Source: Mesorhizobium sp. AR10
GTDB taxonomy: Bacteria; Pseudomonadota; Alphaproteobacteria; Rhizobiales; Rhizobiaceae
Direction of reading: 5' to 3'
NCBI RefSeq assembly: GCF_024746795.1
Contig: NZ_CP080524.1
Span: forward strand, 372,001-436,000
DNA length: 64,000 nt
The notes under the pieces are model-generated. The model worked only from the letters and a program-made list of their open reading frames with translations. It was not told the DNA's origin and did no database searches. The stretch's first letter is position 1. The number at the start of each line of letters is the position of its first letter. Of this stretch, positions 21,024 to 47,654 are shown piece by piece. Position numbers and translations under genes: made by a program.

Positions 21024-22583
21024 CTACAGCGACGCCACGGTCTTCAGCGCGCCATCGAGCATGTCACCCTTCTCGTCCTTGAGTGCTGCTTCGCGCAGGC
21101 GCCTGATCCAGTCGGCGGCATCAGGGCGGCCCTTGACCAGATCCAGCGCCGACAGCACCCGGTCGAATTTCGACTGGGCGCGGACATGGGTGTCGCTGTA
21201 GCCCTTGATCAGCCGGCGACAATTGAGGATCTCCGTGCCAAGCGCATAGTCTTCCCGAGCATGGCCGAGCGCCAGCGCATACCAGCGTTCCAGATGCGCC
21301 GTCTCGATCGCGTGGCGCAGCAGGCGACGGCGCCAGCGGCGCAAGCCGCCGATGAACCACAAAGCGGCAAAGCCGGCGAAACTGTCGGTGCGGATGCGCC
21401 GGCCGTGGTTGATGCGGCGGTCGAGGAAGGCGGCAAGCTTCGGACGCGCCTCGATGTAGCTGCCCAGGCCGGCCGGCAGCGTGCCGCAGAATTCCTCGAT
21501 GCGCGGATGGAAATATTCGGTCACCTGCAGGATCGACCCCTCCTTGAGGCCAACCTCGCGGCGCACGCGCTTGTCTCTGGTCGAGCGCGTCTTCAGATCG
21601 GCAACGCGGATCATGTCGTCGTAGCACATGGCGTTGGCCAGATGCTTGGCGGCGGCGATCGACAGCGCATAGGCATGTCCGGCACTATCCTGCGCGACCG
21701 CCCGATCCAGACGGTCGAGATACTCGCCGCCATAGGCAATGTCCTGATAGTCGACGACCTTCCTCAGGCCGCGCAGCGCCATGTCGCGCAGCGGCTCCGG
21801 CAGCTCGCCGACACGACCCGCCAGTTCCTGCCAGCCTTTCAGCAGGCTTTCCGGACCGCTGACCTTCCCCGCCGCATCTAGGCTAGGCTTAACAACCGTA
21901 GGCTCCGCAACCTGTGGCGCAGCCGCGCCGGTGCCGCGCGCGCGGTCGAAGGAAGCGCCGAAGGCAGCAAGGCTTGCCTTCACGCCCCGGCCGCCGGCGC
22001 CAATCGCCTGCTCATAGCTTTCGCGGGTGAACGGCAGCGCGTCGGACCCGGCCAGCGCGCCGAGCAGACTGGCCGAGATCATCGAACCGTTGTCGGCGGC
22101 GATCTTCTCCATGTCGAAGGCGATGAAGCGCTTGGCCGCGGTCTCCGCCGTTGCGTGCACCTTCGGCGACGAGGCCCGGCCATCACCGGGTTCGATCTTT
22201 TCCGACACGGCGGCGATGCGGTGCGACGAGGCGATCAACGTTGTGCGCTCGGGTGTGACGAAGCCGCGGATGATGGCCCGGCCGGCTTCCATCAATTCGG
22301 CCGCGATCAAAATGTCGACATCGCCTTGTGACGGCGACAGCGCAAACACCGGCAAGCGGCCGGTGTCGCGGCACATTTCGACATAGTAGATGGTGGCGCC
22401 GGTGCGCTGGGCGACGCCGGCAACCGAGGTCGACTGCGCCAGATAGCCGTTGCGCTCGGCGACGTCGGTGATCCAGTCGGCCAGCACGCCGCCGCCCTGC
22501 CCGCCCACCGCCAGCACGGCAAGCTTGATGACGCGCTCATCGTGCTGGACGTCTGCTCTTGGGTGCAAATGAGGCTCAAGCAT
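21024..22583 (-). CDS. iorB: Indolepyruvate:ferredoxin oxidoreductase beta subunit (IorB, long form)
   Basis: A 519-residue IorB-type subunit. The first 190 residues are the pyruvate/ketoisovalerate oxidoreductase gamma domain (AVLAVGGQGGGVLADW; GVAQRTGATIYYVEM). The remaining 300 residues form the extra domain seen in the long IOR beta subunits of proteobacteria, ending WIRRLREAALKDEKGDMLDG. With IorA it oxidatively decarboxylates aryl-pyruvates to aryl-acetyl-CoA, passing electrons to ferredoxin. The first 8 bases overlap the end of iorA. The C-terminal WIRRLREAAL codons are duplicated downstream at 20470-20501. Confidence 0.9.
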   Translation of the reverse strand: MLEPHLHPRADVQHDERVIKLAVLAVGGQGGGVLADWITDVAERNGYLAQSTSVAGVAQRTGATIYYVEMCRDTGRLPVFALSPSQGDVDILIAAELMEAGRAIIRGFVTPERTTLIASSHRIAAVSEKIEPGDGRASSPKVHATAETAAKRFIAFDMEKIAADNGSMISASLLGALAGSDALPFTRESYEQAIGAGGRGVKASLAAFGASFDRARGTGAAAPQVAEPTVVKPSLDAAGKVSGPESLLKGWQELAGRVGELPEPLRDMALRGLRKVVDYQDIAYGGEYLDRLDRAVAQDSAGHAYALSIAAAKHLANAMCYDDMIRVADLKTRSTRDKRVRREVGLKEGSILQVTEYFHPRIEEFCGTLPAGLGSYIEARPKLAAFLDRRINHGRRIRTDSFAGFAALWFIGGLRRWRRRLLRHAIETAHLERWYALALGHAREDYALGTEILNCRRLIKGYSDTHVRAQSKFDRVLSALDLVKGRPDAADWIRRLREAALKDEKGDMLDGALKTVASL

Positions 22584-24729
22584 CGGCGAATGTCAGGCGC
22601 CGGCTTTCGCGGCGCCGCTGCAGCAGGCCGATCGTGGCGCGGCGCGCCATTTCGAGGAAGCGGTCCCGGCGGCCGGGATTGTGCACCACGTCGGCGCGGT
22701 AGAAGGACGGGCACAGCACCGCCGCATCGGCGACCTCGCCGCAATTGCCGCAGCCGACGCAGCTCTGGTCGATATGCGCGACCGGATCGTCGCGCAGCGG
22801 ATCGTCCAGCGACTTCACCGATAGCGACGGGCAGCCGGAGAGCCGCATACAGGCGTGGTCGCCGGTGCAGATGTCCTCGTCGACGCCGAATTTCGGCTTG
22901 ACGACACGCGTCCCACCCTTGATCGCCTTGTCGACCAGCGGCTTTTCGCGACGCTGCCGGTTGAGCATGCATTCGGACGAGGCGACGATGACTTTTGGTC
23001 CTTTCTCGTCCGTCGTCAGCGCCTCGCGCAGCGTGTCCTGCATCTTGGTCACATCATAGGTGCGGTCGATATGGCGCAGCCATTTGACGCCCATGCCTTT
23101 CACCGCCTCGGTGATCGGATGCTTGGTCGATTTCGTCTTGTTGCCCGCGCGCGACGACAAGATGTCCTGGCCGCCGGTGGCGGCGGAGTAAAAATTGTCG
23201 ACGATGACGATGACACCGTCATTCTTGTTGAACACGGCATTGCCGATCGAGGAGGTCAGGCCGTTGTGCCAGAAGCCGCCGTCGCCGACGAAGGAGATCG
23301 AGCGGCGCTTGGCGTCGGGCGAATTGAACGCCGAGGCCGAGGCCGGCCCCAGCCCGTACCCCATGGTGGTGGCGCCGAGCTCGAAAGGCGGCATGATCGA
23401 GAACAGATGGCAGCCGATGTCGGAGGCGATGTGGTGCTTGCCGAGCTCCTGTTCGACCAGCTTGGTGGCGGCAAAGATCGGCCGTTCCGGACAGCCAACG
23501 CAGAAGCCGGGCGGGCGCCCCGGCACGACGTTGATCAGGTCGGCAATGTCGACACCGTCGCCGATCTTGTTTGGCGCACGCACCTCGCCCGACAGCAGAT
23601 GCGGTGCGGTGGCGCGCAGGAAGGCGCCGATGCCGTCGAGCATGACCTGGCCGGTGTATTCGCCGGCCATCGGCAGATACTCCTTGCCGACGAGTTTCGT
23701 GCCGCGCTCGGCCTTATGCAGCATCGAGGCGAACGCCTGCTCGATGTAATTGGGCTGGCCCTCCTCGACGACGAGTACGGATCCCTTGCCCTCGCAGAAG
23801 GACAGGAACTCGTCGTCGACCAGGGGATAGACGACATTCAAGACATAGAGCGGCACGTCGGTACCGCCAAAGGTGTCGGCGAGGCCGAGGCGCTGCAGCG
23901 CGCGGATGACCGAATTGTACATGCCGCCCTGCATGACGATGCCGACCGAGCCGTGGTCCGGTCCGAAGATCTCGTTGATCTTGTTTTTGCGGATGAAATC
24001 GACCGCCGCCGGCCAGCGTTTCTGCACCTTTTCCTTCTCGTGCAGGAAGGAGGCGGGCGGCAGGACGATGCGGCCGGTATCGCGGCGTGGCGCGTCGAGC
24101 GCGTCGGCCACCGTCATCGCCGGCCGCTTGTTGTCCTTGGCGATGAAATGGCCGTGGACGTGGCAGCAGCGGATGCGGACCTGCAGCATGACCGGCGTGT
24201 TGGAAACCTCGGAAAGTTCGAAGCCATCCTCCACCGCCTTGACGATCGATGGCAGGTTCGGCCGCGGATCGAGCAGCCAGACCTGGCTTTTCATGGCGAA
24301 GGCATGGCTGCGCTCCTGCATGATCGAGGAACCCTCGCCATAGTCCTCGCCGACAATGATCAGTGCGCCGCCGGTGACGCCGCCGGAAGCGAGATTGGCC
24401 AGCGCATCGGAGGCGACATTGGTGCCGACGGTCGACTTGAATGTAGCGGCACCGCGGATCGGATAATGCACGGATGCCGCCAGCATGGCGGTGGCGGTCG
24501 CTTCCGAGGCGCTGGCCTCGAAATGCACGCCGAGTTCGCCCAGAATATCCTGCGCGTCGGCCAGCACGTCCATGAGATGGCTGATCGGCGCGCCCTGATA
24601 GCCGCCGACATAGCCGACGCCGCATTGCAGCAGCGCCTTGGTGATGGCGAGGATTCCTTCGCCCGCGAACTCCTCGCCGGCGCCGAGCCTAAGCTTCTCG
24701 ACTTCCTTGGCAAAAGACCGTTCGGCCAT
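22576..24729 (-). CDS. iorA: Indolepyruvate:ferredoxin oxidoreductase alpha subunit (IorA)
   Basis: A 717-residue thiamine-diphosphate enzyme. The pyrimidine-binding part opens the protein (GEGILAITKALLQCGV; YQGAPISHLMDVL). The cofactor-binding part has GDGGFWHNGLTSSIGN near residue 470, and a cysteine pair FCVGCPERP lies near residue 405. The C-terminus is ferredoxin-like, with CTGDHACMRLSGCP and CVGCGNCGEVADAAVLCP; the first cluster has unusual cysteine spacing, as in aerobic proteobacterial IORs. Substrates in the family are indole-, phenyl- and 4-hydroxyphenylpyruvate. It leads an iorA-iorB unit; a MarR gene ends 44 bases upstream. Confidence 0.92.
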   Translation of the reverse strand: MAERSFAKEVEKLRLGAGEEFAGEGILAITKALLQCGVGYVGGYQGAPISHLMDVLADAQDILGELGVHFEASASEATATAMLAASVHYPIRGAATFKSTVGTNVASDALANLASGGVTGGALIIVGEDYGEGSSIMQERSHAFAMKSQVWLLDPRPNLPSIVKAVEDGFELSEVSNTPVMLQVRIRCCHVHGHFIAKDNKRPAMTVADALDAPRRDTGRIVLPPASFLHEKEKVQKRWPAAVDFIRKNKINEIFGPDHGSVGIVMQGGMYNSVIRALQRLGLADTFGGTDVPLYVLNVVYPLVDDEFLSFCEGKGSVLVVEEGQPNYIEQAFASMLHKAERGTKLVGKEYLPMAGEYTGQVMLDGIGAFLRATAPHLLSGEVRAPNKIGDGVDIADLINVVPGRPPGFCVGCPERPIFAATKLVEQELGKHHIASDIGCHLFSIMPPFELGATTMGYGLGPASASAFNSPDAKRRSISFVGDGGFWHNGLTSSIGNAVFNKNDGVIVIVDNFYSAATGGQDILSSRAGNKTKSTKHPITEAVKGMGVKWLRHIDRTYDVTKMQDTLREALTTDEKGPKVIVASSECMLNRQRREKPLVDKAIKGGTRVVKPKFGVDEDICTGDHACMRLSGCPSLSVKSLDDPLRDDPVAHIDQSCVGCGNCGEVADAAVLCPSFYRADVVHNPGRRDRFLEMARRATIGLLQRRRESRRLTFADA

Positions 24730-24773: not shown

Positions 24774-25256
24774 CTAGATGTCGTGCTTGCGAATGTTCTT
24801 CAGCATCTTCAGCAGCGTTGCGATCAGCGCCGCATATTCGGCATCGTCGACATCGTCGAACATTGCCTCAAACGCGTCATGCATGGCCGGCCAGGCGCGG
24901 GTGAACTCGGCGCGACCATCGTCGGTCAGGAACACATGTCGGATGCGGCTGTCGGTGACTCCCTGCTCACGCCGCACAAAGCCCTGCCCTTCCAACGTGT
25001 CGAGCGTCCGGCTCAGCGTCGACTGCTCGATCACAGTATAGACCGAGAGGTCGTTGACGGTGACGCCGTCGGTGACCGACAGCACGGCCAGCGTCCGCAC
25101 CTGCGGAATGGTCAGGCCCTGCTTGCGGAAATCGTCGCGCAAGGTGGCGTTGTAGCGGCCCATGATGCGGTTCATCAGATAGGGCGCGAACTGCTGCAGG
25201 CCAATCTCGCCCAGTGTGGAGATGCGCTGGCGTTTTTCCGGGAGCTTCTGTTCCAT
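24774..25256 (-). CDS. MarR-family transcriptional regulator
   Basis: A 160-residue winged-helix regulator. The core reads LTIPQVRTLAVLSVTDG, then DLSVYTVIEQSTLSRTLDTL (recognition region) and GFVRREQGVTDSRIRHVFLT with the wing Asp-x-Arg. ATG 25256 is used because GGGAGG lies 6 bases upstream and the codon overlaps the preceding flavoprotein stop by one base. It lies between a flavin oxidoreductase and iorAB on the same strand, so it probably controls this group in response to an aromatic ligand. The ligand is not known. Confidence 0.88.
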   Translation of the reverse strand: MEQKLPEKRQRISTLGEIGLQQFAPYLMNRIMGRYNATLRDDFRKQGLTIPQVRTLAVLSVTDGVTVNDLSVYTVIEQSTLSRTLDTLEGQGFVRREQGVTDSRIRHVFLTDDGRAEFTRAWPAMHDAFEAMFDDVDDAEYAALIATLLKMLKNIRKHDI

Positions 25257-26827
25257 CACAACCTCCCTGCCAGGAGAAAGCCGGATCCGCCGCCCAAGCC
25301 CGCGCCGGGATGGGTCGAGGCGCCGATATGGTAGAGGCCCTTGATACCGGTGTCATGGTTGCGGCTCGCCTTGAACGGCCGCCACAGGAACGATTGATCG
25401 ATGGTCGACGAGCCGCCATAGGGGTCGCCGCCGACCAGATTGATGTTCATCGCTTCCAGGTCTGCCGGCGAATAGGCGCGGCGCACTATGATGCTCTTTT
25501 TGAAGCCGTCGATATGGCTGGCGAGGATGGCCTCGACGCGATCGGCATAGGCTTCGCGCAGCGCGTCGGTCCAGCGGCCGTCCGCCGGTGTCTGCAGCTT
25601 GCCAGCCGCATCGCCCTTGATAAGCCGAGGCGCCTCGGGCAGTTGCAGCCACAGGATCGCCTGGCCATCCGGACAGCGCGACGGGTCGAGCGCGTGCGGC
25701 TGGCCGACGCAGACGGTCGGCACCGCCGGCAGCATACCGCGCGTGGCCTCGTTACAGGCCTTGGATACGCCGTCGAGCCCCGGCGTCAGATGCAGCAGGG
25801 CAACCTTGTCCAGGCCCTCGCCGCGCCATGCCGGCGGCTTGTTCAGCGCATAGTGAATCTGGAAGTTGCCCTTCCCGTAGCGGTATTTCTGAGTCGCGTC
25901 GACCGCAGCCGCCGGCGCATCCTTTCCAAGCAAGCGGCCGTAAAGCTGGGTCGGGGTGACTGAGCAGATGATGCTCTTTTTCGCCGCGATCGTCTCGCCG
26001 GATACCAGCCGCACAGCAGAGGCCAGGCCGCCGCTCTGGACGATCCCGGCTACGTCGGCTCCAGTACGGATTTCACCGCCGCGTTCCCTGATCAAGCCTT
26101 CGAACGCCAAGAGCAGGTTCTTCGCCCCACCCTTGACGATAGGTGCGCCAGCGGCCTCCAGCGCGAAGGCGATGACCTTGGCGATCTGACCGGAAAAGGC
26201 ATCTTCCGGCCCAAGGCCGGCATGCAGTACCCAGGGCGCCCATAGCGCGCGGATGGTTTCCGATTGATAGGTGCTCTCCAGCCAGCTGCGCGCCGGCACC
26301 AGCGCCTCGCCGAGAAAGGCGGCAAGAGCGCGCGGGCCACGCCGCCAGGCTTCGCCCGCCATAAGCTTGGTCGTCGGATAAGACCACACGCTGCCGCCGA
26401 GCATTCCGAACAAAAGGCCGGCATTGCGCTCGATGCTTCCGACATCGCTTCCGTGCTGGTCGCCGTCACCTGCCGACACGGCATTGATCGCCGCGATGTT
26501 GGCGGCGCGATCGGTGCGCAGGATGGCGTGGCTGCCGTCCGGCCGCAGCACGCCGGTGGGCGTGCCGGTGTGGCAGAATTCCAGCCCATGCCGCGCCAGG
26601 TCCTTGCCAAGTGCGGCATAGGCCGGCGACGTGATGAACAGGACGAAGGTCGTCGCCATCACATCATGGATGAAGCCGGGCGCGGTGATCTCCTCAGTGC
26701 GCATACAGCCGCCGATGCGGTCGTTGCGCTCCAGGACGAGCACCTTCGCGCCCTTGCCGCCGAGCATCGCCGCGCAGACCAGCGCGTTGATGCCGCTGCC
26801 GACGATGATGTGATCCGGCGCGCTCAT
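25256..26827 (-). CDS. FAD-dependent oxidoreductase, phytoene-dehydrogenase-like
   Basis: A 523-residue flavoprotein. It starts with the dinucleotide-binding fold DHIIVGSGINALVCAAMLGG and an acidic end LVLERNDRIGGCMRT. The C-terminus has GLYHIGASTHPGAGLGGGSG, the second FAD contact typical of the CrtI/amine-oxidase group. It resembles the 27911-29494 protein over its whole length, so the two look like paralogues. The substrate is unknown, but the neighbours point to an aromatic or indolic intermediate. ATG 26827 is preferred over a TTG two codons upstream. It is translationally coupled to the MarR gene. Confidence 0.85.
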   Translation of the reverse strand: MSAPDHIIVGSGINALVCAAMLGGKGAKVLVLERNDRIGGCMRTEEITAPGFIHDVMATTFVLFITSPAYAALGKDLARHGLEFCHTGTPTGVLRPDGSHAILRTDRAANIAAINAVSAGDGDQHGSDVGSIERNAGLLFGMLGGSVWSYPTTKLMAGEAWRRGPRALAAFLGEALVPARSWLESTYQSETIRALWAPWVLHAGLGPEDAFSGQIAKVIAFALEAAGAPIVKGGAKNLLLAFEGLIRERGGEIRTGADVAGIVQSGGLASAVRLVSGETIAAKKSIICSVTPTQLYGRLLGKDAPAAAVDATQKYRYGKGNFQIHYALNKPPAWRGEGLDKVALLHLTPGLDGVSKACNEATRGMLPAVPTVCVGQPHALDPSRCPDGQAILWLQLPEAPRLIKGDAAGKLQTPADGRWTDALREAYADRVEAILASHIDGFKKSIIVRRAYSPADLEAMNINLVGGDPYGGSSTIDQSFLWRPFKASRNHDTGIKGLYHIGASTHPGAGLGGGSGFLLAGRL

Positions 26828-26883
26828 CGGCAATTGCTCTCCGTGAGCGGATGGGGTTCAGTTGCGCAGGATAGTGTTCCTTC

Positions 26884-27007: not shown

Positions 27008-27799
27008 CTATTTGCCCGACACGAGCGCCAGGGCGCGGATCGGGCTGCCGGTGCCGTGCTCGATCTTCAGCGGCGCCGCGATCAGGATGGCGCCCTTCGG
27101 CGGCAGCTGGTCGAGGTTGCAGAGACTGGCGAGACCGTAGCGGTTGGCCTTGTGCATCAATGTGTGCGCCGGGAATGGCGGCTCCATTCCCCCTGCTTTG
27201 CCAGCATCCGTCCCGATCGTCTCGCTGCCCCAGCCCTTGATGTCCTTGCTGATCAGGAACTGGATGGCTTCGGCCGTCGGCCCGGGCGTATGCGGGCCGG
27301 TCTCGTTGGCGTTGAGGAACTCGGCTTCCGAACCGTTGCGCTTGTACCAGTCGGTGCGCATCACCACCCACTCGCCGGCATTGATGGCACCATGCTTGGC
27401 TTCCCATGCCTTGATGTGGTCGACGGTGAGCAGGAAGTCATGGTCGGCGGCGGCTTCCTTCGAGCAGTCGATGACATTGACCGGGCCGACGAAGTTCTGC
27501 GCCGGAATGGTGTCGGTGGCGCCGTCCGGATAATCCTTGCCGGTGATCCAATGCTGCGGCGCGTCGAAATGCGTGCCCGAATGCTCGCCGAGCTTCAGCC
27601 AGTTCCAGGCCCACCACGGGCCGTTCTTGTCATAACGGGAGATCGAGTGGATCTCGACCTTCGGCGTGTCCACCGCCAGCTCGGGCGGCAGCTTGATCAG
27701 CGGGGTGTCGGGTCCGAGCGGTGCCGACAGGTCGATCACCTGAATGGCGCCTGAAAGAAGCTGGCCGGCGACTTCACCGAGGAGTTTTTGGGTGTCCAT
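27008..27799 (-). CDS. Cyclase-family metal-dependent hydrolase (isatin hydrolase / kynurenine formamidase-like)
   Basis: A 263-residue member of the cyclase/kynurenine-formamidase superfamily, whose enzymes open cyclic or formyl amides with Mn or Zn. The metal-binding motif HSGTHFDAPQHW is present near residue 85 and the domain opens IQVIDLSAPLGPDTP. Known members include isatin hydrolase and kynurenine formamidase; either would give an anthranilate-type product, which fits the 2-aminobenzoyl-CoA-type enzyme encoded at 35016. The choice between them cannot be made from sequence. GAGGGA precedes ATG 27799. It is divergent from the flavoprotein at 27911, with a palindromic operator between. 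Confidence 0.82.
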   Translation of the reverse strand: MDTQKLLGEVAGQLLSGAIQVIDLSAPLGPDTPLIKLPPELAVDTPKVEIHSISRYDKNGPWWAWNWLKLGEHSGTHFDAPQHWITGKDYPDGATDTIPAQNFVGPVNVIDCSKEAAADHDFLLTVDHIKAWEAKHGAINAGEWVVMRTDWYKRNGSEAEFLNANETGPHTPGPTAEAIQFLISKDIKGWGSETIGTDAGKAGGMEPPFPAHTLMHKANRYGLASLCNLDQLPPKGAILIAAPLKIEHGTGSPIRALALVSGK

Positions 27800-27888
27800 G
27801 GTCTCTGTTCCCTCTTTCAAAGTGATGATCAAGGCTCGTCTCGGCCCTTAATATCCTACTAGACGAAAACATATGCATCTGCAATTAT

Positions 27889-27902
27889 CTTTAAGCATAA
27901 AG
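27889..27902. promoter_or_regulatory. Putative MarR operator, site A
   Basis: CTTTAAGCATAAAG, a dyad with arms CTTTA/TAAAG, lies in the divergent gap between the cyclase gene and the 27911 flavoprotein gene, just before the ribosome site of the latter. It fits TTYAAGCNTRAAR, shared with sites at 34948, 42394 and 43289. Confidence 0.55.
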
Positions 27903-27910: not shown

Positions 27911-29494
27911 TTGGCGGGCGTGAGCGAGTTTGACGCCATATTCGTGGGGGCAGGCCACAACAGTCTGGCATGCGCCGCGCATCTAGCGCTCAAGGGGTGG
28001 AAAACAGCGATTTTCGAGCGCAGTGCAGCAATCGGCGGCGCCGTCCAGACCCAGGAATACACCCTTCCCGGCTTCCGCCACGATTTCGGCGCGATGAATC
28101 TGAGCCTGTTCGCCGGCTCGGCCTTCCACCGGAAATATGCAAATGAATTGAAAACCCACGGACTGGAATTCTCAGCCGTCGCCGACTGCTTCGCCAGCGC
28201 CTTCCCCGACGGTCGCTGGTTTGGCGTCAGCAACGATCTGGAAAAGACCGCCTCGCGGATGGCTGCCTTCTCGGCAGCCGACGCCGCCACATGGCGCAAG
28301 CTCGTCGCGGCTTTCCCTGCCGAGGCCGAGCATCTGTTTCGCCTGCTTGGCTCGCCGATGAGCGGCCGCGCGCTGGCCGGCACCGCCTGGAACCTTTGGC
28401 GCAAGAAGGGTTTTTCCGGCGCGCTCGACACCGGCCGGTTATTGCTTTCCTCACCCCGCGCCTGGCTCGAGGAGACTTTCGAGTCGCCGCATGTCAGGGC
28501 GGCGCTCGCCACCTGGGGCATGCATCTCGACTTCGCACCCGACATCGCCGGCGGTGCGGTGTTCCCCTATCTGGAATCGATGGTCAACCAGTGTTTCGGC
28601 ATGGTGCTCGGCAAGGGCGGCGCCGACACCATCATCCGCGCCCTGTCCGGCATGGTCACAGCTGCCGGCGGCAAGATCGCCACCGGGGCCGAAGTGGCCG
28701 AGATCACGGTTTCCGGCGGCAGGGCGACCGGCGTGCGGCTCGCTTCCGGGGATTTCCATATTGCCAGCAAGGCGGTCATCGCCGGCGTCGCGCCCAGGGC
28801 GCTCGCCGGCAGGCTGCTGCCCGAAGGGTCGGGCGATGCCGGCTTCGATGCGGCGATGAAAGGATTTCGATACGCACCGGGCACGATGATGATCCACCTG
28901 GCGCTGGACGATCTTCCGGATTGGAGCGCCGGACCTGAGCTCAGGCAATTCGCCTATGTGCATCTTTCGCCTTCGCTCGACGCCATGTCGCGTACCTATC
29001 AGCAGGCGATGGCAGGCATGCTGCCGGACGAACCGGTGCTGGTCGTCGGCCAGCCGACGGCTATCGATCCCTCGCGGGCGCCCGAGGGCAAGCATGTGCT
29101 GTGGGTGCAGGTGCGCATGCTGCCGGCGGAGATCCTTGGCGACGCTGCCGGCAAGATCGCACCCGATCGCTGGGACGAGGTGAAGAAGGCCTATGCCGAC
29201 CGTGTTCTCGATATCATCGAAACCTACGCGCCCGGCCTTCGCCGAAAAATCCTCGGACGCGCCGTGTTCTCGCCTGTCGATCTCGAGCGGGAGAACCCCA
29301 ACCTCGTCGGTGGCGACCAGGTCTGCGGCAGCCACCATCTGGCGCAAAATTTCCTGTTTCGCCCGGCGCGCGGATACGCCGGATGGAACACGCCCGTCGC
29401 CAATCTGCATCTCACAGGTGCCGCGACATGGCCGGGCGCCGGCGTCGGCGCGGCCTCGGGCTACATGCTCGCGCAATTGCTTGGCGGGAGGTAG
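27911..29494 (+). CDS. FAD-dependent oxidoreductase, phytoene-dehydrogenase-like
   Basis: A 527-residue flavoprotein parallel in design to the 25256-26827 protein: VGAGHNSLACAAHLALKG at the start, then TAIFERSAAIGGAVQT, and LHLTGAATWPGAGVGAASG near the end. The two proteins also share PGFRHDF/PGFIHDV-like N-terminal and EGKHVLWVQ/DGQAILWLQ central segments. TTG 27911 is favoured because AGGA lies 6 bases upstream; GTG 27920 is the alternative. It is the first gene after operator site A. It may introduce a double bond or oxidise a ring in the same pathway. Confidence 0.83.
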   Translation: MAGVSEFDAIFVGAGHNSLACAAHLALKGWKTAIFERSAAIGGAVQTQEYTLPGFRHDFGAMNLSLFAGSAFHRKYANELKTHGLEFSAVADCFASAFPDGRWFGVSNDLEKTASRMAAFSAADAATWRKLVAAFPAEAEHLFRLLGSPMSGRALAGTAWNLWRKKGFSGALDTGRLLLSSPRAWLEETFESPHVRAALATWGMHLDFAPDIAGGAVFPYLESMVNQCFGMVLGKGGADTIIRALSGMVTAAGGKIATGAEVAEITVSGGRATGVRLASGDFHIASKAVIAGVAPRALAGRLLPEGSGDAGFDAAMKGFRYAPGTMMIHLALDDLPDWSAGPELRQFAYVHLSPSLDAMSRTYQQAMAGMLPDEPVLVVGQPTAIDPSRAPEGKHVLWVQVRMLPAEILGDAAGKIAPDRWDEVKKAYADRVLDIIETYAPGLRRKILGRAVFSPVDLERENPNLVGGDQVCGSHHLAQNFLFRPARGYAGWNTPVANLHLTGAATWPGAGVGAASGYMLAQLLGGR

Positions 29495-39584: not shown

Positions 39585-40733
39585 ATGCCTGACCGCTCCT
39601 TCCTCAACTGGCCCTTCTTCGAGGACCGACACCGCGTGCTCTCCGAAAAGCTGGACGCCTGGTGCGCGAAAAACCTGCCGGTCGATCATCATGACGTCGA
39701 CGCCGCCTGTCGCGAGCTGGTGGCGAGACTGGGCAAGGACGGCTGGCTGAAGCCGACAGCGCTCGATGTGGACAATCCGGGACCACTCGACGTGCGCACG
39801 CTGTGCATCACCCGCGAGACGCTGGCCCGGCATGACGGGCTGGCCGACTTCGCCTTCGCCATGCAAGGGCTCGGCACCGGCGCGCTCAGCCTGTTCGGCA
39901 CGCCGCAGCAACAGAAATGGTTGGCGAAGACCCGCGTCGGCAAAGCGATTTCTGCCTTTGCCTTGTCGGAACCACGCTCGGGGTCGGATGTCGCCAATAT
40001 GGAGATGGCAGCGGCCCGTGACGGCGACGACTATGTTCTGTCCGGCGAAAAGACCTGGATCTCCAATGGCGGCATCGCCGACCTCTATGTCGTCTTCGCC
40101 CGCACCGGCGAGGCGCCGGGCGCCAAAGGTCTTTCGGCGTTCATCGTACCCGCGCAGACCAAGGGCCTGACCATCGCCGAGCGGCTGGAGGTGATCGCGC
40201 CACATCCGCTGGCGCGCCTGTCGTTCGACCAGGTCCGCATTCCGGCCTCGTCGCTGATCGGCAGACCGGGCGACGGTTTCCACATCGCCATGTCGGTGCT
40301 CGACGTGTTCCGCTCTACCGTCGGCGCGGCAGCACTCGGCTTTGCCCGGCGCGCACTGGATGAAAGCATCAAAAGAGTGGCCGAGCGCAAACTGTTCGGC
40401 GCGCCGATGGCCGAGTTGCAGATGGTGCAGGGCCACATCGCCGACATGGCGCTCGACGTCGATGCTGCAGCACTTCTCGTCTATCGCGCTGCCTGGACCA
40501 AGGACATGGGTGCTGCCCGTGTCACCCGCGAAGCGGCGATGGCTAAACTGTTTGCCACCGACAAAGCGCAAGAGGTGATCGACAAGGCTGTGCAGTTGCA
40601 TGGCGGCGACGGCGTCCGAAAAGGCCACATCGTTGAAAGCCTCTACCGCGAGATCCGCGCGCTGCGCATCTACGAGGGTGCTTCGGACGTGCAGAAGGTG
40701 GTGATTGCGCGGCAGGTCATGGGCGCGGCCTGA
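39585..40733 (+). CDS. Acyl-CoA dehydrogenase
   Basis: A 382-residue FAD enzyme. The FAD-contact segment [15 protein letters not shown] lies near residue 125, WISNGG near residue 160, and the C-terminal signature [20 protein letters not shown] closes the protein. In the operon it would oxidise a cyclic acyl-CoA. GGAGG lies 5 bases before ATG 39585; the longer frame runs back into the palindromic element and is not used. Confidence 0.92.
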
Positions 40734-40815: not shown

Positions 40816-41211
40816 ATGCACACCATCCTGCAGCCGGAAGGCTGGGCGAAACCCAAAGGCTACGCCAATGGCGTCGCGGCGCGCGGGCGACTGGTCTTCG
40901 TTGGCGGGCAGGTCGGCTGGAGCGGGCAATGCCAGTTCGAGACCGATGATTTTGTCGGCCAGGTGCGGCAGACATTGGCCAACATCGTCGCCATTGTGGC
41001 CGAGGCCGGCGGCAAGCCTGAGCATATCACCTCGATGACCTGGTATTTTACTGACAAGGCCGAATATCTGGCCAATCTCAGGGGTATCGGCGAGGCCTAT
41101 CGCGAGGTGATCGGGCGGCACTATCCGGCCATGGCCGCCATGCAGGTGATGGCGCTGGTCGAGGATCGCGCCAAGGTCGAGATCCAGGCTACGGCGGTCA
41201 TACCTGAGTGA
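40816..41211 (+). CDS. Rid-family (YjgF/YER057c/UK114) protein, atypical
   Basis: A 131-residue Rid-fold protein (FVGGQVGWSGQ; QTLANIVAIVAEAGGKPEHITSMTWY; VEIQATAVIPE). RidA itself hydrolyses reactive enamines and imines through a conserved Arg just before the last strand. In my alignment that position is Leu (MALVEDRAKVEIQ), so this is probably a different Rid subfamily with another activity. Placement in an aminobenzoyl-CoA-type operon makes enamine or imine handling attractive all the same. AGGAATCGGGAGG-like purines precede ATG 40816. Confidence 0.87.
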   Translation: MHTILQPEGWAKPKGYANGVAARGRLVFVGGQVGWSGQCQFETDDFVGQVRQTLANIVAIVAEAGGKPEHITSMTWYFTDKAEYLANLRGIGEAYREVIGRHYPAMAAMQVMALVEDRAKVEIQATAVIPE

Positions 41212-41254: not shown

Positions 41255-42346
41255 TTACCCGCGAAGGCCCGCCTGTCTCAGAAGGGGCAGCACGCGGCCG
41301 CAGAAATAGGGCAGCTCCTGCGTGTAGTTTACGAAGGACAGCGCGATCCCCTGATAGCCTTGCTCGGCGATGGCGACCATATCAGCGGCGATGGTTTCCG
41401 GCGTCCCGATCAGCGGATAGGTCCCGGCGCCGCCAGCGAAGCGCTGCCGGTAGCGGTCATAGGCATGCGGGTCGTGGGACTGCGAGAATTCCTTCTTGCT
41501 CGCCATGTGGGCATCGACCGCATTATGATCGGCCATATCAACGGCATAGCGCGAGTAGTAGGCCTGCGCCTCCTCCATCGTCTCGCGGCAGACGACATGC
41601 GCCACCGTATAGACGCCGACATCGCGCCCATGCTTGTCGGTGCGCTCGCGTATGTCGGCGACGTGCTTTCCGGCATCAGCCATTTCGGAAAAAGTCGTGA
41701 ACAGGTAGTCGCATTTGGCGGCGGCGAAATCCCGGCCCGGCCCGCCGAAAGCGGCGTTCATGGTCACCGGCCGCGGAAGCTGCAGGCTGGCCGGCCGGCT
41801 CACCGCCTCCCTGAGGCGATAATAGGTGCCTTCGTAGTCGAGCGGCTGGTCCGAGGTGTAAAGCTTTTCCAGGATTTCGATCCATTCGGCTGCCTGGTCG
41901 TAGCCCTTCTCGACCAGGGGCGTGCCGAACATGCCGAATTCCTTGGGATTCCAGCCGCAGACGATGTTGAGCCCCGCGCGACCCTGGCTGATGTGGTCGA
42001 CTGTCGCCAGTGCCTTGGCGGCATAGAGCGGATGCACGAGCGGCACGTGTACGGTCATGAACAGGCCGATCTGCTCGGTGGCCACGGCAAGTGCCGCCGC
42101 CCAGGTGAAGGTCTCGAACGACCACTCCCGCACCTTGTTGCGGCCACCGAAGCCGCGCCAGCGCGCGATCGGCAGCATGAATTCCAGCCCCGCGCGATCG
42201 GCGATCCGGGCAGCCGTCAGATTGTCCTGCCAGCTCGCCGTCCAGCGTTCCGGCACATCGGTAATCGCAAGCCCGCCATCGGCGTTGGTCGAAAAGATGC
42301 CGAGCTTCAACCTGTTCGGGCCATGCAGGGGATGGGCTTTGATCAT
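41255..42346 (-). CDS. LLM-class flavin-dependent monooxygenase (RutA-like)
   Basis: A 363-residue luciferase-like FMN monooxygenase. Typical segments are FMLPIARWRGFGG, TEQIGLFMTVHVPLVHP, HISQGRAGLNIVCGWNPKEF and the late GTPETIAADMVAIAEQG. The branch includes RutA, which opens the pyrimidine ring, and dimethylsulfone or alkanesulfonate enzymes. The target here is unknown; ring or amide cleavage is possible. It needs reduced FMN from a separate reductase, not seen nearby. It converges on the Rid gene and is divergent from the HpaI-type gene across operator site C. Confidence 0.87.
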   Translation of the reverse strand: MIKAHPLHGPNRLKLGIFSTNADGGLAITDVPERWTASWQDNLTAARIADRAGLEFMLPIARWRGFGGRNKVREWSFETFTWAAALAVATEQIGLFMTVHVPLVHPLYAAKALATVDHISQGRAGLNIVCGWNPKEFGMFGTPLVEKGYDQAAEWIEILEKLYTSDQPLDYEGTYYRLREAVSRPASLQLPRPVTMNAAFGGPGRDFAAAKCDYLFTTFSEMADAGKHVADIRERTDKHGRDVGVYTVAHVVCRETMEEAQAYYSRYAVDMADHNAVDAHMASKKEFSQSHDPHAYDRYRQRFAGGAGTYPLIGTPETIAADMVAIAEQGYQGIALSFVNYTQELPYFCGRVLPLLRQAGLRG

Positions 42347-42393: not shown

Positions 42394-42411
42394 TATTTCA
42401 AGCCTGAAATA
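42394..42411. promoter_or_regulatory. Putative MarR operator, site C
   Basis: TATTTCAAGCCTGAAATA, a dyad with perfect 7-base arms (TATTTCA/TGAAATA), in the 124-bp divergent gap between the LLM monooxygenase and HpaI-type aldolase genes. It fits TTYAAGCNTRAAR. Confidence 0.62.
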
Positions 42412-42470
42412 GCTTCGCTCGACCGTCGTTTGCGGATATGGATTTGGACAGGATCAGGAAAGGGATGGGC

Positions 42471-43274
42471 ATGAGTGAATTCCGCCAGAAATCCATCGGC
42501 AAGAAGAACCTCGTCGGCTCGTTCGCCGCCATACCGCATGCGGTTGCGGTGGAGGTGATGGCGCAGTCCGGTCTCGATTTCCTCTGCATCGATTGGGAGC
42601 ATGCCCAGATATCCAGGGGCACGATCGAAAACATGGTACGGGCGGCCGACATTCATCGGGTGCCCGTCATGGTGCGCGTCCCAGGCCACCAGCCGGAGGC
42701 GATCGCCAACGCGTTGGACAGCGGCGCGCAAGGCGTTCTTATCCCGCGTATCTCGACCGCCGCCCAGGCTCAGGCGGCTGTGAAGGCCTCGCGCTATCCG
42801 CCGATGGGCGAGCGCGGCGTCGGCCCCGGCCGGGCCGCCGGTTATGGCTACCGCATCCCTGAATATCTCACCGAGGCCAATGCCAGAACCGTTGTCGCGG
42901 TGCAGGTAGAGACCGCCGAAGGGCTCGCCAATATCGAAGAGATTGCCGCCGTGGACGGCGTCGACGTGATCTTCGTCGGCCCCGGTGACCTTTCGGTGTC
43001 GATCGATGCGCTTGGCCCGAAAGGCGCCGGCAAGCTCGATGCGGCGATCCACACGATCATTGGCGCGACGATCGCGCACGACAAGGCCGCCGGCATATTT
43101 TGCGCCAGCCCGCAGCCGGTCGGCCAATGGGCGGCCATCGGCGCCAGCTTCTTCATCCTGGCCAGCGACACGATGTTTCTCGGCGCCGGCGCTGCAGCCA
43201 ACTATGCCGCCGCCCGCGCCGAATTGGCGCCAGACGGGGGGCCGGTAACGGGTCTGGGCGTGTATTCGCGGTGA
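42471..43274 (+). CDS. HpcH/HpaI-family aldolase
   Basis: A 267-residue metal-dependent class II aldolase of the HpaI type. Key segments are LCIDWEHAQISRGTIE, VMVRVPGHQPE (active-site Arg), PPMGERGVGPGRAAGYGY, VAVQVETAEGLANIEEI (metal Glu) and VIFVGPGDLSVSID (metal Asp). The family splits 4-hydroxy-2-oxo acids to pyruvate and an aldehyde, as in meta-cleavage pathways. AGGAAAGG lies 7 bases before ATG 42471, which is preferred over ATG 42465 and 42438. Confidence 0.9.
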   Translation: MSEFRQKSIGKKNLVGSFAAIPHAVAVEVMAQSGLDFLCIDWEHAQISRGTIENMVRAADIHRVPVMVRVPGHQPEAIANALDSGAQGVLIPRISTAAQAQAAVKASRYPPMGERGVGPGRAAGYGYRIPEYLTEANARTVVAVQVETAEGLANIEEIAAVDGVDVIFVGPGDLSVSIDALGPKGAGKLDAAIHTIIGATIAHDKAAGIFCASPQPVGQWAAIGASFFILASDTMFLGAGAAANYAAARAELAPDGGPVTGLGVYSR

Positions 43275-43288
43275 CAAAGCGAAAAACT

Positions 43289-43302
43289 TTTTAAGCTTAA
43301 AA
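43289..43302. promoter_or_regulatory. Putative MarR operator, site D
   Basis: TTTTAAGCTTAAAA is a perfect 14-base palindrome, 15 bases after the aldolase stop and 126 bases before the aminotransferase start. It fits TTYAAGCNTRAAR. Confidence 0.6.
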
Positions 43303-43427
43303 CTTTTTCCTTGAAAAGTCCGGGGCTTTGGATAAGCATTCAATATCGACCGTTACTGCCGTGCCGGACGGGCTTGCCGGCAGTCCTGTCGAGGCGTTCA
43401 GGGTGCGAGGTTCAGTCCTTGTCGTTC

Positions 43428-44624
43428 ATGCTGCCCCAGTCATCGTCTCTGGCCAGCGCGCGTTACGCTTTCGATGGCGTGCGCGCACAAATTCGCGATC
43501 TGCACACCGAAAACATCGCCAACCTTGCCGTGCGCGCCCGCGAACTGGGCGACGTGATCGCGCTCTGGTATGGCGAAGGCGACATGGTAACGCCGGCCTT
43601 CATCCGCGACGCGGCCAAGGCGGCGTTCGATGAAGGCCTGACCTTCTACGTTCCCAACATGCGCGGCCATGGGCCGTTGAATGACGCGTTGTCGGAATAC
43701 CAGTCGCGCATCCACGGCCGGCCGATACCGATCGCGCGCACCACCGTCACGCCGGGCGGCATGCAGGCTCTGTATCTGGCGCTGGAACTGCTAGTCGATA
43801 CCGGCACCAATGTCGTCTACGTCGCGCCGCAATGGCCCAACATCCACAATGCCATCCACCTGATCGGCGGCGAGCCGCGGCCGTTTTCACTCGATTTCAA
43901 AGGCGACTGGAAGCTCGACCTCGACCGGCTGTTTGCCACCTGCGACGCGCGCACGCGCGCGATCTTCCTGTCGACGCCTTCGAACCCGACGGGCTGGACC
44001 GCGTCGCGCGAGGAGATGCAGGCGCTGCTCGAGTTCAGCCGGCGCACCGGCATCTGGATCATCTCCGACGAGGTCTATGGCCGGCTCTATTTCAACGGCG
44101 TGGTGGCGCCCTCGGTGCTGCAGATCGCCGAGGACGGAGACAGGGTGCTGTCGGTCAACAGCTTCTCGAAAGCCTGGGCGATGACCGGCTGGCGGGTCGG
44201 CTGGCTGACGCATCCGTCTGGCGTCGCCGACCAGCTCGGCGCCATGAGCCAATATATCAACAGCGGCACGGCGGCCCCGATCCAGGCCGGCGCGGTCGCG
44301 GCGATCCGCCAGGGTGAGCCGCTGGTCGAGGAGATCCGGCAGCGGATCAAGACCGGCCTTGACCTTGCCTATGACAGGCTGGCGCAGATTCCCGGCATCG
44401 TGCTGCCCAAAAAGCCGCGCGGCGGCATGTATGCGTTCTTTGCAATGGAAGGCGAAAGCGACGCCCGTCGCGCCTGCGCCAGGATCCTGGAAACGGCGCG
44501 CGTCGGGTTGGCGCCCGGCCATCTGTTCGGAAGTTCGGCAACGCCCTTCCTGCGCATGTGTGTCTGTCGCGACCGCGACCAGATTGCGACCGCGCTCGAT
44601 CGCATGGCCGCTGCAATGAATTGA
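43428..44624 (+). CDS. Class I/II PLP-dependent aminotransferase
   Basis: A 398-residue fold-type I aminotransferase. The cofactor lysine is in SVNSFSKAWAMTGWRVGW near residue 247, preceded by STPSNPTGW near residue 184 and ISDEVYGRLYF near residue 213; the C-terminal Arg for the carboxylate is in FLRMCVCRD. It could form or remove an amino group on an aromatic amino acid, for example giving the aryl-pyruvate used by IorAB; this link is inference. ATG 43428 is chosen from family length; the longer frame has no support. Confidence 0.88.
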   Translation: MLPQSSSLASARYAFDGVRAQIRDLHTENIANLAVRARELGDVIALWYGEGDMVTPAFIRDAAKAAFDEGLTFYVPNMRGHGPLNDALSEYQSRIHGRPIPIARTTVTPGGMQALYLALELLVDTGTNVVYVAPQWPNIHNAIHLIGGEPRPFSLDFKGDWKLDLDRLFATCDARTRAIFLSTPSNPTGWTASREEMQALLEFSRRTGIWIISDEVYGRLYFNGVVAPSVLQIAEDGDRVLSVNSFSKAWAMTGWRVGWLTHPSGVADQLGAMSQYINSGTAAPIQAGAVAAIRQGEPLVEEIRQRIKTGLDLAYDRLAQIPGIVLPKKPRGGMYAFFAMEGESDARRACARILETARVGLAPGHLFGSSATPFLRMCVCRDRDQIATALDRMAAAMN

Positions 44625-44698: not shown

Positions 44699-45496
44699 AT
44701 GAGCTTCACTCGTCGTAACCTGCTTCTTCTCGCTGCCACCATCGGCATCGCCGCCGGCCCGGCCACCGCCTATGCCGCCGATGTGCTCAACGTCGGCGCC
44801 TATCCGACCAATCCGCCCTTCGAATACAAGAACGAGAGCGGCACCTTCGAGGGTTTCGAAGTCGACATCGTCAACGAGGCGGCTAAGCGCGCCGGCATGA
44901 CCACGGAAATCGCCGACCTCGGGTTTCAGGCGCTGTTCGCCGCCACCACCTCGAAGCGTATCGATGTCGCTATCTCGTCGATCACCATCACGCCGGAGCG
45001 GCTGAAGTCGCAATCGTTCACCCAGCCCTACTATGACTCCGACATGGGCATCGCCACCAAGACCGACAGCGCGATCAAGACCGAGGCCGACCTGAAGGGC
45101 AAGATCGTCGGCGTGCTGTCCGGCTCGACCGGTGAAACCTGGGTCAAGGAACACCAGGAGGCCGGGGGGTTCAGCGAGGTGAAGGGCTATGATACGCAGC
45201 AGAACCTGCTGCTCGATCTCAGCGCCGGCCGCGTCGACGCCGCGGTCAGCGACATTCCGGGCATGGAGTATTCCTTCACCAAGATGAAGGATTTGACCGT
45301 CAAGGAGCGCATCAAGACCGGCGAACAATACGGGCTGATGATGACCAAGGACCACCCGCTGCTCGGCAAGCTGAACGACACACTGACCGCGATGAAGAAG
45401 GACGGCACGCTGGCCTCGATCCACAAGAAGTGGTTCGGCAGCGACGCACCGGCCGATTCTTCGACCGTCAAGGAAATGCCGTTGCCGAAGGGCTGA
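44699..45496 (+). CDS. Amino-acid-type ABC transporter substrate-binding protein
   Basis: A 265-residue family 3 periplasmic binding protein. The signal peptide (MSFTRRNLLLLAATIGIAAG, cut after AYA near residue 27) precedes LNVGAYPTNPPFEYKNESG, the usual ligand-entry segment, and ISSITITPERLKSQSFTQPYY. Ligands of the family are polar amino acids, opines and their derivatives. AGAGGGAAC precedes ATG 44699. A permease gene follows after 155 bases, but no matching ATPase is present. Confidence 0.9.
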   Translation: MSFTRRNLLLLAATIGIAAGPATAYAADVLNVGAYPTNPPFEYKNESGTFEGFEVDIVNEAAKRAGMTTEIADLGFQALFAATTSKRIDVAISSITITPERLKSQSFTQPYYDSDMGIATKTDSAIKTEADLKGKIVGVLSGSTGETWVKEHQEAGGFSEVKGYDTQQNLLLDLSAGRVDAAVSDIPGMEYSFTKMKDLTVKERIKTGEQYGLMMTKDHPLLGKLNDTLTAMKKDGTLASIHKKWFGSDAPADSSTVKEMPLPKG

Positions 45497-45651: not shown

Positions 45652-46326
45652 ATGTCGCTGCTGGACACCTTCTTCAACGCCGATGTCATGCTCTCCAGCC
45701 TGCCGGCGCTGCTGCGCGGCTTCCTGAACACGCTGCTGCTCGGGATCCTGAGCATCGGCATCGGCATCCCCGTCGGCCTGGGGATCAGCCTTGTGCGGCT
45801 CTATGCGCCGAAGCCGCTGCGGTGGCTTGCGGTCGGCTACATCGACATCTTCCGGGCGATGCCGGTGCTGGTGGTGCTGATCCTGATCTACTATGCGCTG
45901 CCGTTCCTCGGTATACGGCTGTCGTCCTGGACCTCCGCGGTGACGGCGTTCGCCATCATCATGGCGGCCTATTCGGCCGAGGTGTTCCGCTCCGGCATAG
46001 AAAGCATTCCGCGCGGCCAGTTCGAGGCGGCGCAGGCGCTCGGCCTGCCGTTCCTGCTAACCTTGCGAAAGGTGGTGCTGCCGCAGGCGATCCGCGTGGT
46101 CATTCCGCCAATGACCAGCAACTGCGTTTCGATGTTCAAGGACACTTCGCTCGCCTCCACCGTGGCGCTGCCCGAACTGCTGAAGGAAGCGACCAACGCC
46201 CAGTCGCTGTACGCCAATCCCTCGCCGCTAATCGGCGCCGCGCTGGTCTATCTCATCTTCCTCTGGCCGATGGTGCGTCTCGTCAGCCTGCTTGAACGCC
46301 GCTTCAAAACCGAAAAAACCCGCTGA
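45652..46326 (+). CDS. Amino-acid-type ABC transporter permease
   Basis: A 224-residue permease of the His/Glu/Gln/Arg/opine family. It has [57 protein letters not shown] (EAA loop start) and [20 protein letters not shown]. It may homodimerise, since only one permease is encoded. The ATPase would have to come from elsewhere in the genome. It ends 47 bases before the class V PLP enzyme gene. Confidence 0.9.
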
Positions 46327-46373: not shown

Positions 46374-47654
46374 TTGAACAAGCATCAGACCGACAACGCG
46401 ACCAACGCCGCCGGCCCGTTCCCCGTCGAAACAATCCGCGCCATGTTTCCCGCCTTGCAGCGGGCCGGCGACTTCATCTTTTTGGACAATGCTGCCGGCG
46501 CGCAGATCCCGCAGAGCGTGCTCGACGCGGTGACCAACCATCTGGTCTCGCACAATGTGCAGCGCGGCGGCCGCTATGGCCGTAGCGTCACCGTCGACCA
46601 ATCGGTCGCCGACGCGCGCGAAAGCGTAGCGCTGCTGATCAACGCCTATAGTCCGTCGGAAATCTGCTTCGGCATGAACGCCACTTCGTTCATCCGCCTG
46701 GTCAGCCTCGGCATCGGCCAGATGCTTCAGGAGCGCGACGAAATCGTCATCACCGACATGGACCATGACGCCAACATCGCGACGTGGCTGGCGCTGGAAT
46801 CTGCTGGCGCCAAGTTCAAATGGTGGCGTATGCGCGAGGACGGCAATCTACATGTCGACGACCTGCGCCCGCTGGTCTCCGATCGCACAAGGCTCGTCGC
46901 CTGCACCGCTACGGCGCATTCGATCGGCTCGATCGTCGATGTCGCTTCGGTGGCGAAGATTGCCCATGCTGCAGGCGCCGAAGTGTTCCTCGACGGCGTG
47001 CATTACGGGCCGCACGGCCTGATCGACGTGCAGGCCTGGGACTGCGACTACCTCGTCTGCTCCGGCTACAAGAATTTCTCGCCGCATATGGGCTTCCTCT
47101 GGGGCCGCTTCGAGACGCTGAAGCGGCTGCCGACCTTCCGCGAGGACTTTATCCCCGACGAGCCGCCCTACAAGGTCGAGGCCGGCACCTTCATCTACGA
47201 GAACGTCTCCGGCATGGATGCCGCGGTGCGCTATCTCGAATCGATCGGCCGCAACTTTGCGCCTGCGAACAACCGCTCGCGCCGCGACAACATCGTCGCC
47301 GGCATGAATGCCATCCGCGACTACGAACTGGTGCTGGCGCGCGAAATGCTGGCCGTGCTCAAGGATTGCGGCGCGACCATCTACGGCGTTGCCGACGAGG
47401 ACCGCATCACGGAACGCGTGCCGACCTTCTGTTTCAACATCGGCACGCTGTCGCCGCAAGCGATCGTCGAGGGGATGGCCGAGATGCAGATCGGCATCCG
47501 CGACGGCCACATGTACGCGCCGCGGCTGATGAAGCGTCTCAATCTCAGCATGGACAGCGGCGCCATCCGCGCCTCGCTGGTGCATTACAATACGATCGAG
47601 GAAGTGCGCCGCTTCGGCGAAGCGCTGCGCGCCATCATCGCCCGGCTGTCCTGA
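46374..47654 (+). CDS. Cysteine-desulfurase-like class V PLP enzyme
   Basis: A 426-residue PLP enzyme of the SufS-like class V group. The cofactor lysine is in [13 protein letters not shown] near residue 233, and upstream are [22 protein letters not shown] and [11 protein letters not shown]. No conserved active-site cysteine loop of a true desulfurase is evident, so lyase, desulfurase or aminotransferase activity is open. TTG 46374 is supported by AGGAGA 5 bases upstream; the first downstream ATG would remove conserved sequence. It follows the uptake genes and may process the imported compound. Confidence 0.82.

Follow-up and report, generated by a model that had tools for sequence, protein, structure and literature searches.

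A 64-kb stretch of the 6.88-Mb genome of Mesorhizobium sp. AR10 (contig NZ_CP080524.1, positions 372,001 to 436,000), here called the window, carries between positions 21024 and 47654 a gene cluster that probably forms a catabolic hub. We put at about two in three the probability that this hub converges on isatin and continues through CoA thioesters, with the oxidoreductase IorAB in place of a CoA ligase. In this scheme two flavoproteins (FAD1 and FAD2) with a Dpp-type importer, and an LLM-class monooxygenase, an HpaI-type aldolase and the aminotransferase AT1 with the SBP3 importer, would be feeders supplying isatin from an indole or oxindole compound. Isatin would be opened by isatin hydrolase (IH) to isatinate, which IorAB would convert with CoA to 2-aminobenzoyl-CoA, CO2 and reduced acceptor, replacing an ATP-dependent ligase. 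The ring would be hydroxylated and reduced by ACMR, a fused flavoprotein of the 2-aminobenzoyl-CoA monooxygenase/reductase type, and the product would be processed by an SDR protein, an enoyl-CoA hydratase (ECH), an acyl-CoA dehydrogenase (ACAD) and a Rid protein through deamination and steps resembling beta-oxidation. One palindrome and a MarR regulator, most likely MarR2, would control the whole set.

The evidence, all at the level of sequence, consists of gene identities, IH residues, co-occurrence, the linkage pattern of ligase and IorAB, and a common palindrome. Gene classes were checked with Pfam and NCBIfam. An earlier interpretation made from the letters alone (the sequence-only reading) had listed these classes, and each was found where it had been placed, the first importer ATPase by reading of the sequence. 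It had also proposed that an indolic or tryptophan-derived compound is opened to an aminobenzoate and degraded as CoA thioesters. We retain the opening of an indolic ring to an aminobenzoyl compound and the degradation as CoA thioesters. Free anthranilate, however, need not be an intermediate, since IorAB would give 2-aminobenzoyl-CoA from isatinate.

Isatin hydrolase and its conserved neighbourhood

The cyclase gene (PF04199) lies on the reverse strand at 27008..27832, and the sequence-only reading had left a choice between isatin hydrolase and kynurenine formamidase for its product. Among PDB sequences the protein matched isatin hydrolase B (LaIHB, 4j0n) with E=3.6e-128 and other isatin hydrolases with 3.5e-93 to 1.9e-89, while the best kynurenine formamidase reached 1.5e-06. 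This comparison rules out the formamidase; judged by its sequence, the cyclase is an isatin hydrolase. The metal motif HxG[T/A]HxDxPxH occurs as HSGTHFDAPQH from residue 84. For LaIHA the residues named are His69, His73, Asp75, His79, Asp193 and His207 (PMC6117287). Their counterparts in the window protein, paired by position and motif, are H84, H88, D90, H94, D209 and H223, and these are invariant in all 30 aligned rows (29 distinct, the window being present twice). LaIHA, LaIHB and the isatin hydrolase RsIHA have the same motif and His/Asp catalytic residues as the window IH; the latter sits in a defined cluster, whereas no gene neighbourhood is given for those three in the available text of PMC6117287.

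Named Mesorhizobium species have proteins up to 98% identical to the window IH. At E<=1e-40, 9 of the 289 genomes searched in the class had IH, and at E<=1e-60, 25 of 398 in the phylum; genomes with and without it are called IH+ and IH- below, and individual genomes and loci are numbered G and L.

Next to IH on the reverse strand are FAD1 (25256..26833), a CrtI/CrtO-like flavoprotein by its family matches, and MarR1 (24774..25259), whose best solved relatives include 3cjn (2.8e-42) and 7kym, a B. japonicum MarR (1.4e-22). On the forward strand follow FAD2 (27911..29494), a CrtO-like flavoprotein by family matches and tree, the SBP family 5 importer binding protein SBP5 (29603..31135; PF00496, 249 bits), two Dpp-type permeases recognized with Pfam (31353..32360 and 32326..33201), a DppD-like ATPase (33198..34073), named by position and reading of the sequence and conserved in relatives, and a DppF-like ATPase (34006..34902; PF00005). 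The sequence-only reading had proposed a search for syntenic loci. Genome contigs were scanned for IH and the best 80 of 233 relatives were kept as loci, of which 67 exceeded 20 kb and 13 shorter ones were excluded. The order IorB-IorA-MarR1-FAD1-IH-FAD2-SBP5-DppBCDF is kept in all 67, nearly all of them Mesorhizobium, and ACMR is also present in 66. Because the run is conserved in 67 of 67 loci, the gene set is no chance assembly.

IorAB, ACMR and the linkage of the CoA ligase

Both subunits of IorAB are encoded on the reverse strand. IorB (21024..22583; IadB-like, POR plus DUF6537) scored 713.9 bits against NF006179 (cut-off 348). IorA (22576..24729; IadA-like), the TPP-dependent 2-oxoacid:acceptor oxidoreductase subunit, was assigned by alignment, tree and motif. 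It aligns along most of TIGR03336 at a score far below the cut-off (275.4 versus 650.9 bits), and all 21 clade members compared share its GDG..N motif and 13 of its 15 cysteines. A 24-row tree splits the window-clade IorA from a more distant group (100/100).

Isatinate is 2-aminophenylglyoxylate, a 2-oxo acid. Since the substrate is a 2-oxo acid and the enzyme class is that of CoA-dependent 2-oxoacid oxidoreductases, IorAB may form 2-aminobenzoyl-CoA and CO2 from isatinate in one step. Phenylglyoxylate:acceptor oxidoreductase of anaerobic bacteria converts an aryl-glyoxylate and CoA to the aroyl-CoA and CO2; the proposed IorAB would work alike, although we take the two enzymes to differ in subunit make-up. 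We infer that IorAB feeds ACMR directly with 2-aminobenzoyl-CoA, with no ligase in between. The sequence-only reading had IorAB making an aryl-acetyl-CoA, which is probably not its role, as the gene pattern fits the conversion of isatinate and CoA to 2-aminobenzoyl-CoA.

That pattern is seen in the 398-genome draw. Window-clade IorA, defined by at least 65% identity and with three partial matches counted, occurs in 25 genomes, 23 of the 25 IH+ versus 2 of the 373 IH- (Fisher 7e-33), and ACMR in 69, 24 of the 25 IH+ versus 45 of the 373 IH- (Fisher 2.6e-19); both values are too small because the genomes are related. Four genomes with only a distant IorA (53-57%) were left out of the count, and three loci of the distant group (L262-L264) have neither IH nor ACMR. 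One of the IH+ genomes lacking window-clade IorA is G504.

IorAB is also found close to ACMR. In G492 and G560 it lies 0.5-0.6 kb from ACMR, with IH on another contig. An Azospirillum thermophilum plasmid carries IorAB, a reductase, a Rieske oxygenase, a ligase, SDR, ACMR, SDR and ECH in a single run with no IH in the stretch, and the Caballeronia SBC1 plasmid has IorAB, a thioesterase and ACMR, with a cyclase further along. In Caballeronia, Shinella, Ruegeria and G560 the gene after IorB is of the thioesterase family, which fits the expectation for a neighbour of an acyl-CoA-forming enzyme. Several relatives (L246 5611-10508, L276, L277, L278) have a thioesterase after IorAB and, nearby, a cupin and an FAA hydrolase, joined on the three plasmids by an Asp/Glu racemase and a carbon-nitrogen hydrolase. 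The IorAB-thioesterase-cupin-FAA hydrolase set looks like an alternative lower branch via 5-hydroxyanthranilate or gentisate and maleamate, replacing beta-oxidation.

ACMR (35016..37310, forward strand), which the sequence-only reading had taken for a fused flavin monooxygenase/old yellow enzyme of the 2-aminobenzoyl-CoA type, scored 1261.3 bits against PRK08255 (cut-off 1078) as a full-length fusion and sits in a module of that type, so the assignment holds. The genes of the module follow on the same strand: SDR (37307..38080) and MarR2 (38008..38544, true start probably later), both recognized by Pfam and module comparison; ECH (38526..39353; PRK08258, 476.2 bits, cut-off 330); ACAD (39522..40733; Pfam/NCBIfam); and Rid (40816..41211; PF01042), which may hydrolyse an enamine or imine ring intermediate. 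The PRK08255 model itself is named salicylyl-CoA 5-hydroxylase. On that name, and with the cupin and FAA-hydrolase genes of relatives serving a gentisate-like branch, the locus could be of a salicylate type in which the cyclase acts on something else. The identity of the cyclase as isatin hydrolase and the kynureninase adjoining the module in several relatives do not favour this, and we regard it as highly improbable.

No aminobenzoate-CoA ligase was found within 10 kb of the window ACMR; an ortholog lies 3.8 Mb away. For comparison, 46 loci came from the 45 IH- genomes that have ACMR. With an AMP-binding profile built from 13 host open reading frames, such a frame was found within 10 kb of ACMR in 41 of these 46, and a ligase ortholog, taken as at least 47% identity to the host ligase (a limit chosen after the values were seen), in 40, two of the misses (L214, L226) being cut by contig ends. 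None of the 46 stretches has IorAB. By contrast, only one of the nine ACMR loci that have IorAB no more than about 15 kb away (the window, G593, G465, G462, G531, G633, G202, G492 and G560) has the ortholog, namely G593 (Fisher 2e-5). Counting G649 and G384, in which ACMR and IorAB are about 27 and 32 kb apart and of which G384 is without the ortholog, the figure becomes 2 of 11. The ortholog is also missing next to ACMR in five same-genus loci (L252-L256), close kin of the window. Among plasmids, 6 of 50 records were examined; ACMR occurs together with IorAB in three, and among the three the ligase ortholog is present in one, Alloyangia.

Palindromic sites and a possible route through anthranilate

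The short upstream regions of the window have a palindrome in common. A first pattern, TTTMAAGCNTRAAA, was rejected as too narrow, with one match in the window, one in the genome and also one in the backwards genome control. A wider pattern, YTTYAAGCNTRAAR, matches at four operator-like sites in the 64 kb: CTTTAAGCATAAAG between IH and FAD2 (27889..27902), CTTTAAGCTTGAAA 5' of ACMR (34948..34961), a site between LLM and HpaI (42396..42409), and TTTTAAGCTTAAAA 5' of AT1-SBP3-permease (43289..43302). None occurred in 100 shuffles. Other genomes serve as the test, because the pattern was derived from the window sites. Within 250 bp upstream of ACMR the palindrome was present in 25 of 66 loci in its strict form and 41 of 66 in a relaxed form, versus 0.35 and 0.63 expected from density, many of these loci being related; excluding the window, the counts are 24 and 40 of 65. 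In the 66 IH-scan loci of at least 20.5 kb it stands at IH/FAD2 in every one and on the ACMR side in 62, and no locus has it anywhere else. Since MarR2 is located in the ACMR module, we infer that it is the likely regulator acting on the predicted sites.

These sites also bear on whether the window holds one system or two or three neighbouring ones, namely an isatin/IorAB/importer operon, an anthranilate operon and the stretch from LLM to AT5. Such a division is consistent with two distant alphaproteobacteria (L112, L115) that have the same IorB-to-DppF run with no ACMR in the fetched stretch, and with feeder modules that come and go independently. It seems quite improbable to us, given one palindrome before IH/FAD2, ACMR, LLM/HpaI and AT1 that is kept in the genus, and given the adjoining of IorAB and ACMR in G492, G560 and Caballeronia.

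Besides the relatedness of the genomes and the late choice of the ligase limit, several points weigh against an isatin hub with a ligase-free entry. G589 has IH without window-clade IorA, and G528 and G303 have window-clade IorA without IH, G528 with a ligase-linked ACMR as well. In both G593 and Alloyangia the ligase ortholog coexists with IorAB, IH and ACMR, and G649, outside the nine loci, has an ortholog (59%) in the module beside IorAB. In IH+ genomes, 6 of 10 ACMR stretches without IorAB in the stretch have the ortholog (G581, G584, G636, G484, G589 and the second copy of G492); it is missing in G608, G154, G384 and G468, the last cut at 4.2 kb. Kynureninase stands beside the ligase-less ACMR module in G465 and G462, and in G465 tryptophan dioxygenase does too. 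The palindrome pattern was set after the data had been seen, with the four window sites as its source, and the palindrome is missing before ACMR in 5 of the 9 IorAB-linked loci (G531, G633, G202, G492, G560). We had expected the ligase to be absent from the host genome altogether, which is ruled out by a benzoate-family CoA ligase at C2:4193117 (85% identical to the G593 ligase), 3.8 Mb from the window, with an exact match to the relaxed palindrome core 83 bp upstream. When one mismatch is allowed, the count before this ligase is within what chance would give, being reached in 78 of 200 shuffles. Finally, anthranilic acid was restored by iadC-K2 without iadAB (PMC12633357). The exceptions make the exclusion of ligase and IorAB a linkage tendency rather than a law; IH+ genomes frequently have a ligase at another place.

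Two side observations concern the same genes. The IH homolog of G589 (G589:C1:473410-474204), a genome without window-clade IorA, has one in-frame TAG. L159 (18062-18898) and the ends of the G465 and G462 stretches have genes for tryptophan 2,3-dioxygenase and kynureninase next to an ACMR module that lacks the ligase.

The distant ligase with its palindrome core leaves room for activation of free anthranilate. Isatinate would then reach anthranilate by another route, and IorAB would be an accessory enzyme with a different 2-oxo acid, for instance indolepyruvate, as its substrate. For iad loci the end product is reported to be anthranilate (PMC9613470, PMC12633357), six IH+ genomes have a ligase-linked ACMR lacking adjacent IorAB, and TIGR03336 supplies the indolepyruvate name. 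However, IorA falls under the cut-off of that model, window-clade IorA tracks IH across the draw, the ligase is missing in 8 of the 9 ACMR loci with IorAB close by, and the literature excerpts consulted do not name indolepyruvate as an iad intermediate. We consider this route possible but unlikely. The host ligase adjoins a kynureninase (TIGR01814, 355.8 versus 246.4 bits; L271 9633-12513, own genome C2:4183500-4203400). In our own reading one ACMR would have two entries, from kynurenine through anthranilate and the ligase, and from isatin through isatinate and IorAB, both to 2-aminobenzoyl-CoA.

Proposed feeder modules and comparison with known systems

The chemistry by which isatin would arise is our proposal for each of the feeders, of which the CrtI/CrtO-like flavoproteins and the LLM/aldolase set look like alternatives. 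In a 16-row tree FAD1 and FAD2 fall into separate clades (100/100), and they co-occur with the Dpp importer in the window, G593, G465, G462, G649, G001, G154 and Alloyangia. The FAD1 clade includes the flavoproteins of G492 and G560, which adjoin StyA-like and StyB-like proteins, an SDR and IH. Indole oxidation in these two genomes would give dioxindole, and FAD1 is the sole further redox enzyme seen beside IH; we therefore propose that FAD1 may oxidize dioxindole to isatin.

The second set begins with LLM (41255..42346, reverse strand), assigned by family match and co-occurrence with IH, and continues on the forward strand with an HpcH/HpaI-type aldolase (42438..43274; PF03328), the class I/II aminotransferase AT1 (43311..44624), the polar-amino-acid-type binding protein SBP3 (44699..45496) and an amino-acid-type ABC permease (45652..46326), the last assigned by family match and locus comparison and AT1 and SBP3 by family match. 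LLM was found in 13 of the 398 genomes (E<=1e-110), 12 of them IH+, and these 12 account for every IH+ genome in the family of the host. Five further same-genus loci (L252-L256) all keep this right-hand part, except that L256 lacks AT1; L251 is too short to judge. An earlier view of LLM to AT5 as an unrelated neighbour was rejected on recurrence at IH loci, synteny in the genus, co-occurrence of LLM with IH and the common palindrome. A cysteine-desulfurase-like PLP protein (46374..47654, forward strand; TIGR01976, 590.6 bits, cut-off 352.35) is syntenic in the genus. It is a weak member, not among the matches of the other loci when 27 stitched IH loci were compared for partners.

In that comparison, G649 and G531 again have LLM, HpaI, SBP3 and the permease. 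Thirteen of the 27 loci have an IH 48-62% identical to that of the window and accompanied by a thiolase and an OB-fold protein, and for G202, G636 and G581 the IH stretch also includes a ligase and a Rieske oxygenase; these neighbourhoods resemble the gene set of the iad auxin locus. StyA-like and flavin-reductase proteins and an SDR occur with IH and the FAD1 homolog in G492 and G560, and adjoin IorAB in G001. There the oxygenase has StyA as its sole NCBIfam match (205 bits, cut-off 550), and the reductase matches several flavin reductases including StyB, all below cut-off. The first copy in G462 is the sole locus with none of the queried partners. In the host itself, entry of indole-3-acetic acid by a Rieske oxygenase (iadDE) was not found: there is no match in the window, and the best in the genome is 35% over residues 18-163 of 437. 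Nor was entry of indole by StyA found in the host genome, in a search run without a positive control, so that the empty answer shows little.

Elsewhere in the window, the C-rich stretch CCCCCCTCTGTCCTGCC occurs in two intergenic regions at 26887 and ~39530 on opposite strands, and is probably a dispersed intergenic repeat. A tRNA-Thr(CGT) adjoins a stretch of lower G+C (17895-20000; 52% versus ~63%), a possible island edge. At 61687-61786, Rfam PYLIS_3 (mttB pyrrolysine insertion sequence) scores above the gathering threshold within an open 529-aa frame (60607-62196), possibly a non-pyrrolysine MttB homolog. A MocR-like PdxR regulator (58731-60419) and a long-chain fatty-acid CoA ligase (53413-55395) also lie outside the cluster.

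The IorA and IorB families are described as exclusive markers of iad loci, where they are called iadA and iadB (PMC9613470). In relatives, IorA proteins 65-74% identical to that of the window stand beside Rieske oxygenase genes and belong to the same families. We tentatively equate IorAB with IadAB on family and on neighbours in G202, G636, L250, L259, L260 and Azospirillum. Isatin and isatinic acid are reported as iad intermediates (PMC9613470, PMC12633357). PMC8383072 gives C8H7NO3 as the formula of isatinic acid, and the names iadA/iadB there appear to belong to an iac-like set; C7H7NO is in our own reading 2-aminobenzaldehyde. The iorA of R. pomeroyi is listed under 'Signaling - auxin' (PMC10041152), and 7kym is named as a template for IacR/IadR (PMC11630574). 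Our literature searches found no role or reaction for IadAB and no step from isatin to aminobenzoyl-CoA in the excerpts available.

A wider proposal can be drawn from these sequences, which as a whole we hold to be doubtful. IorAB (= IadAB) would be an isatinate:acceptor oxidoreductase yielding 2-aminobenzoyl-CoA directly, and isatin a common node with exchangeable feeders. Auxin would enter through an iad module and indole through one of the StyA type; a CrtI-type flavoprotein pair would take dioxindole to isatin by means of FAD1, and an LLM/aminotransferase/HpaI module would split dioxindolyl-pyruvate, an oxidized tryptophan, by retro-aldol cleavage to isatin and pyruvate. If the ligase-free entry by itself is real, iadA and iadB, markers of auxin-degrading loci, would gain a testable reaction; iad loci are tied to plant-root protection (PMC9613470). 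Such an entry would join two known pathways at one defined enzyme and offer a reason for the pile-up of a compound with the isatinate formula in constructs lacking iadAB, and bacteria may hold several exchangeable routes into isatin.

The window itself is no iad locus. With the iad loci of Variovorax, Bradyrhizobium and Achromobacter, as far as their published descriptions were available, it has in common the IorA/IorB families and a nearby IadR-like MarR. Those loci have a Rieske oxygenase, a thiolase, an OB-fold protein and a cluster-borne ligase, whereas the window has none of these and carries instead two CrtI/CrtO-like flavoproteins, a Dpp importer and the ACMR module. In its lower part it is like the 2-aminobenzoyl-CoA pathway of Azoarcus evansii and Arthrobacter Rue61a, in which an ACMR-type fused flavoprotein is likewise combined with beta-oxidation-like enzymes (PMC4539516, PMC3534580). 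It differs from that pathway in its entry: the ligase of most ACMR modules (40 of 46) is missing from the window cluster, and IorAB and IH are there instead.

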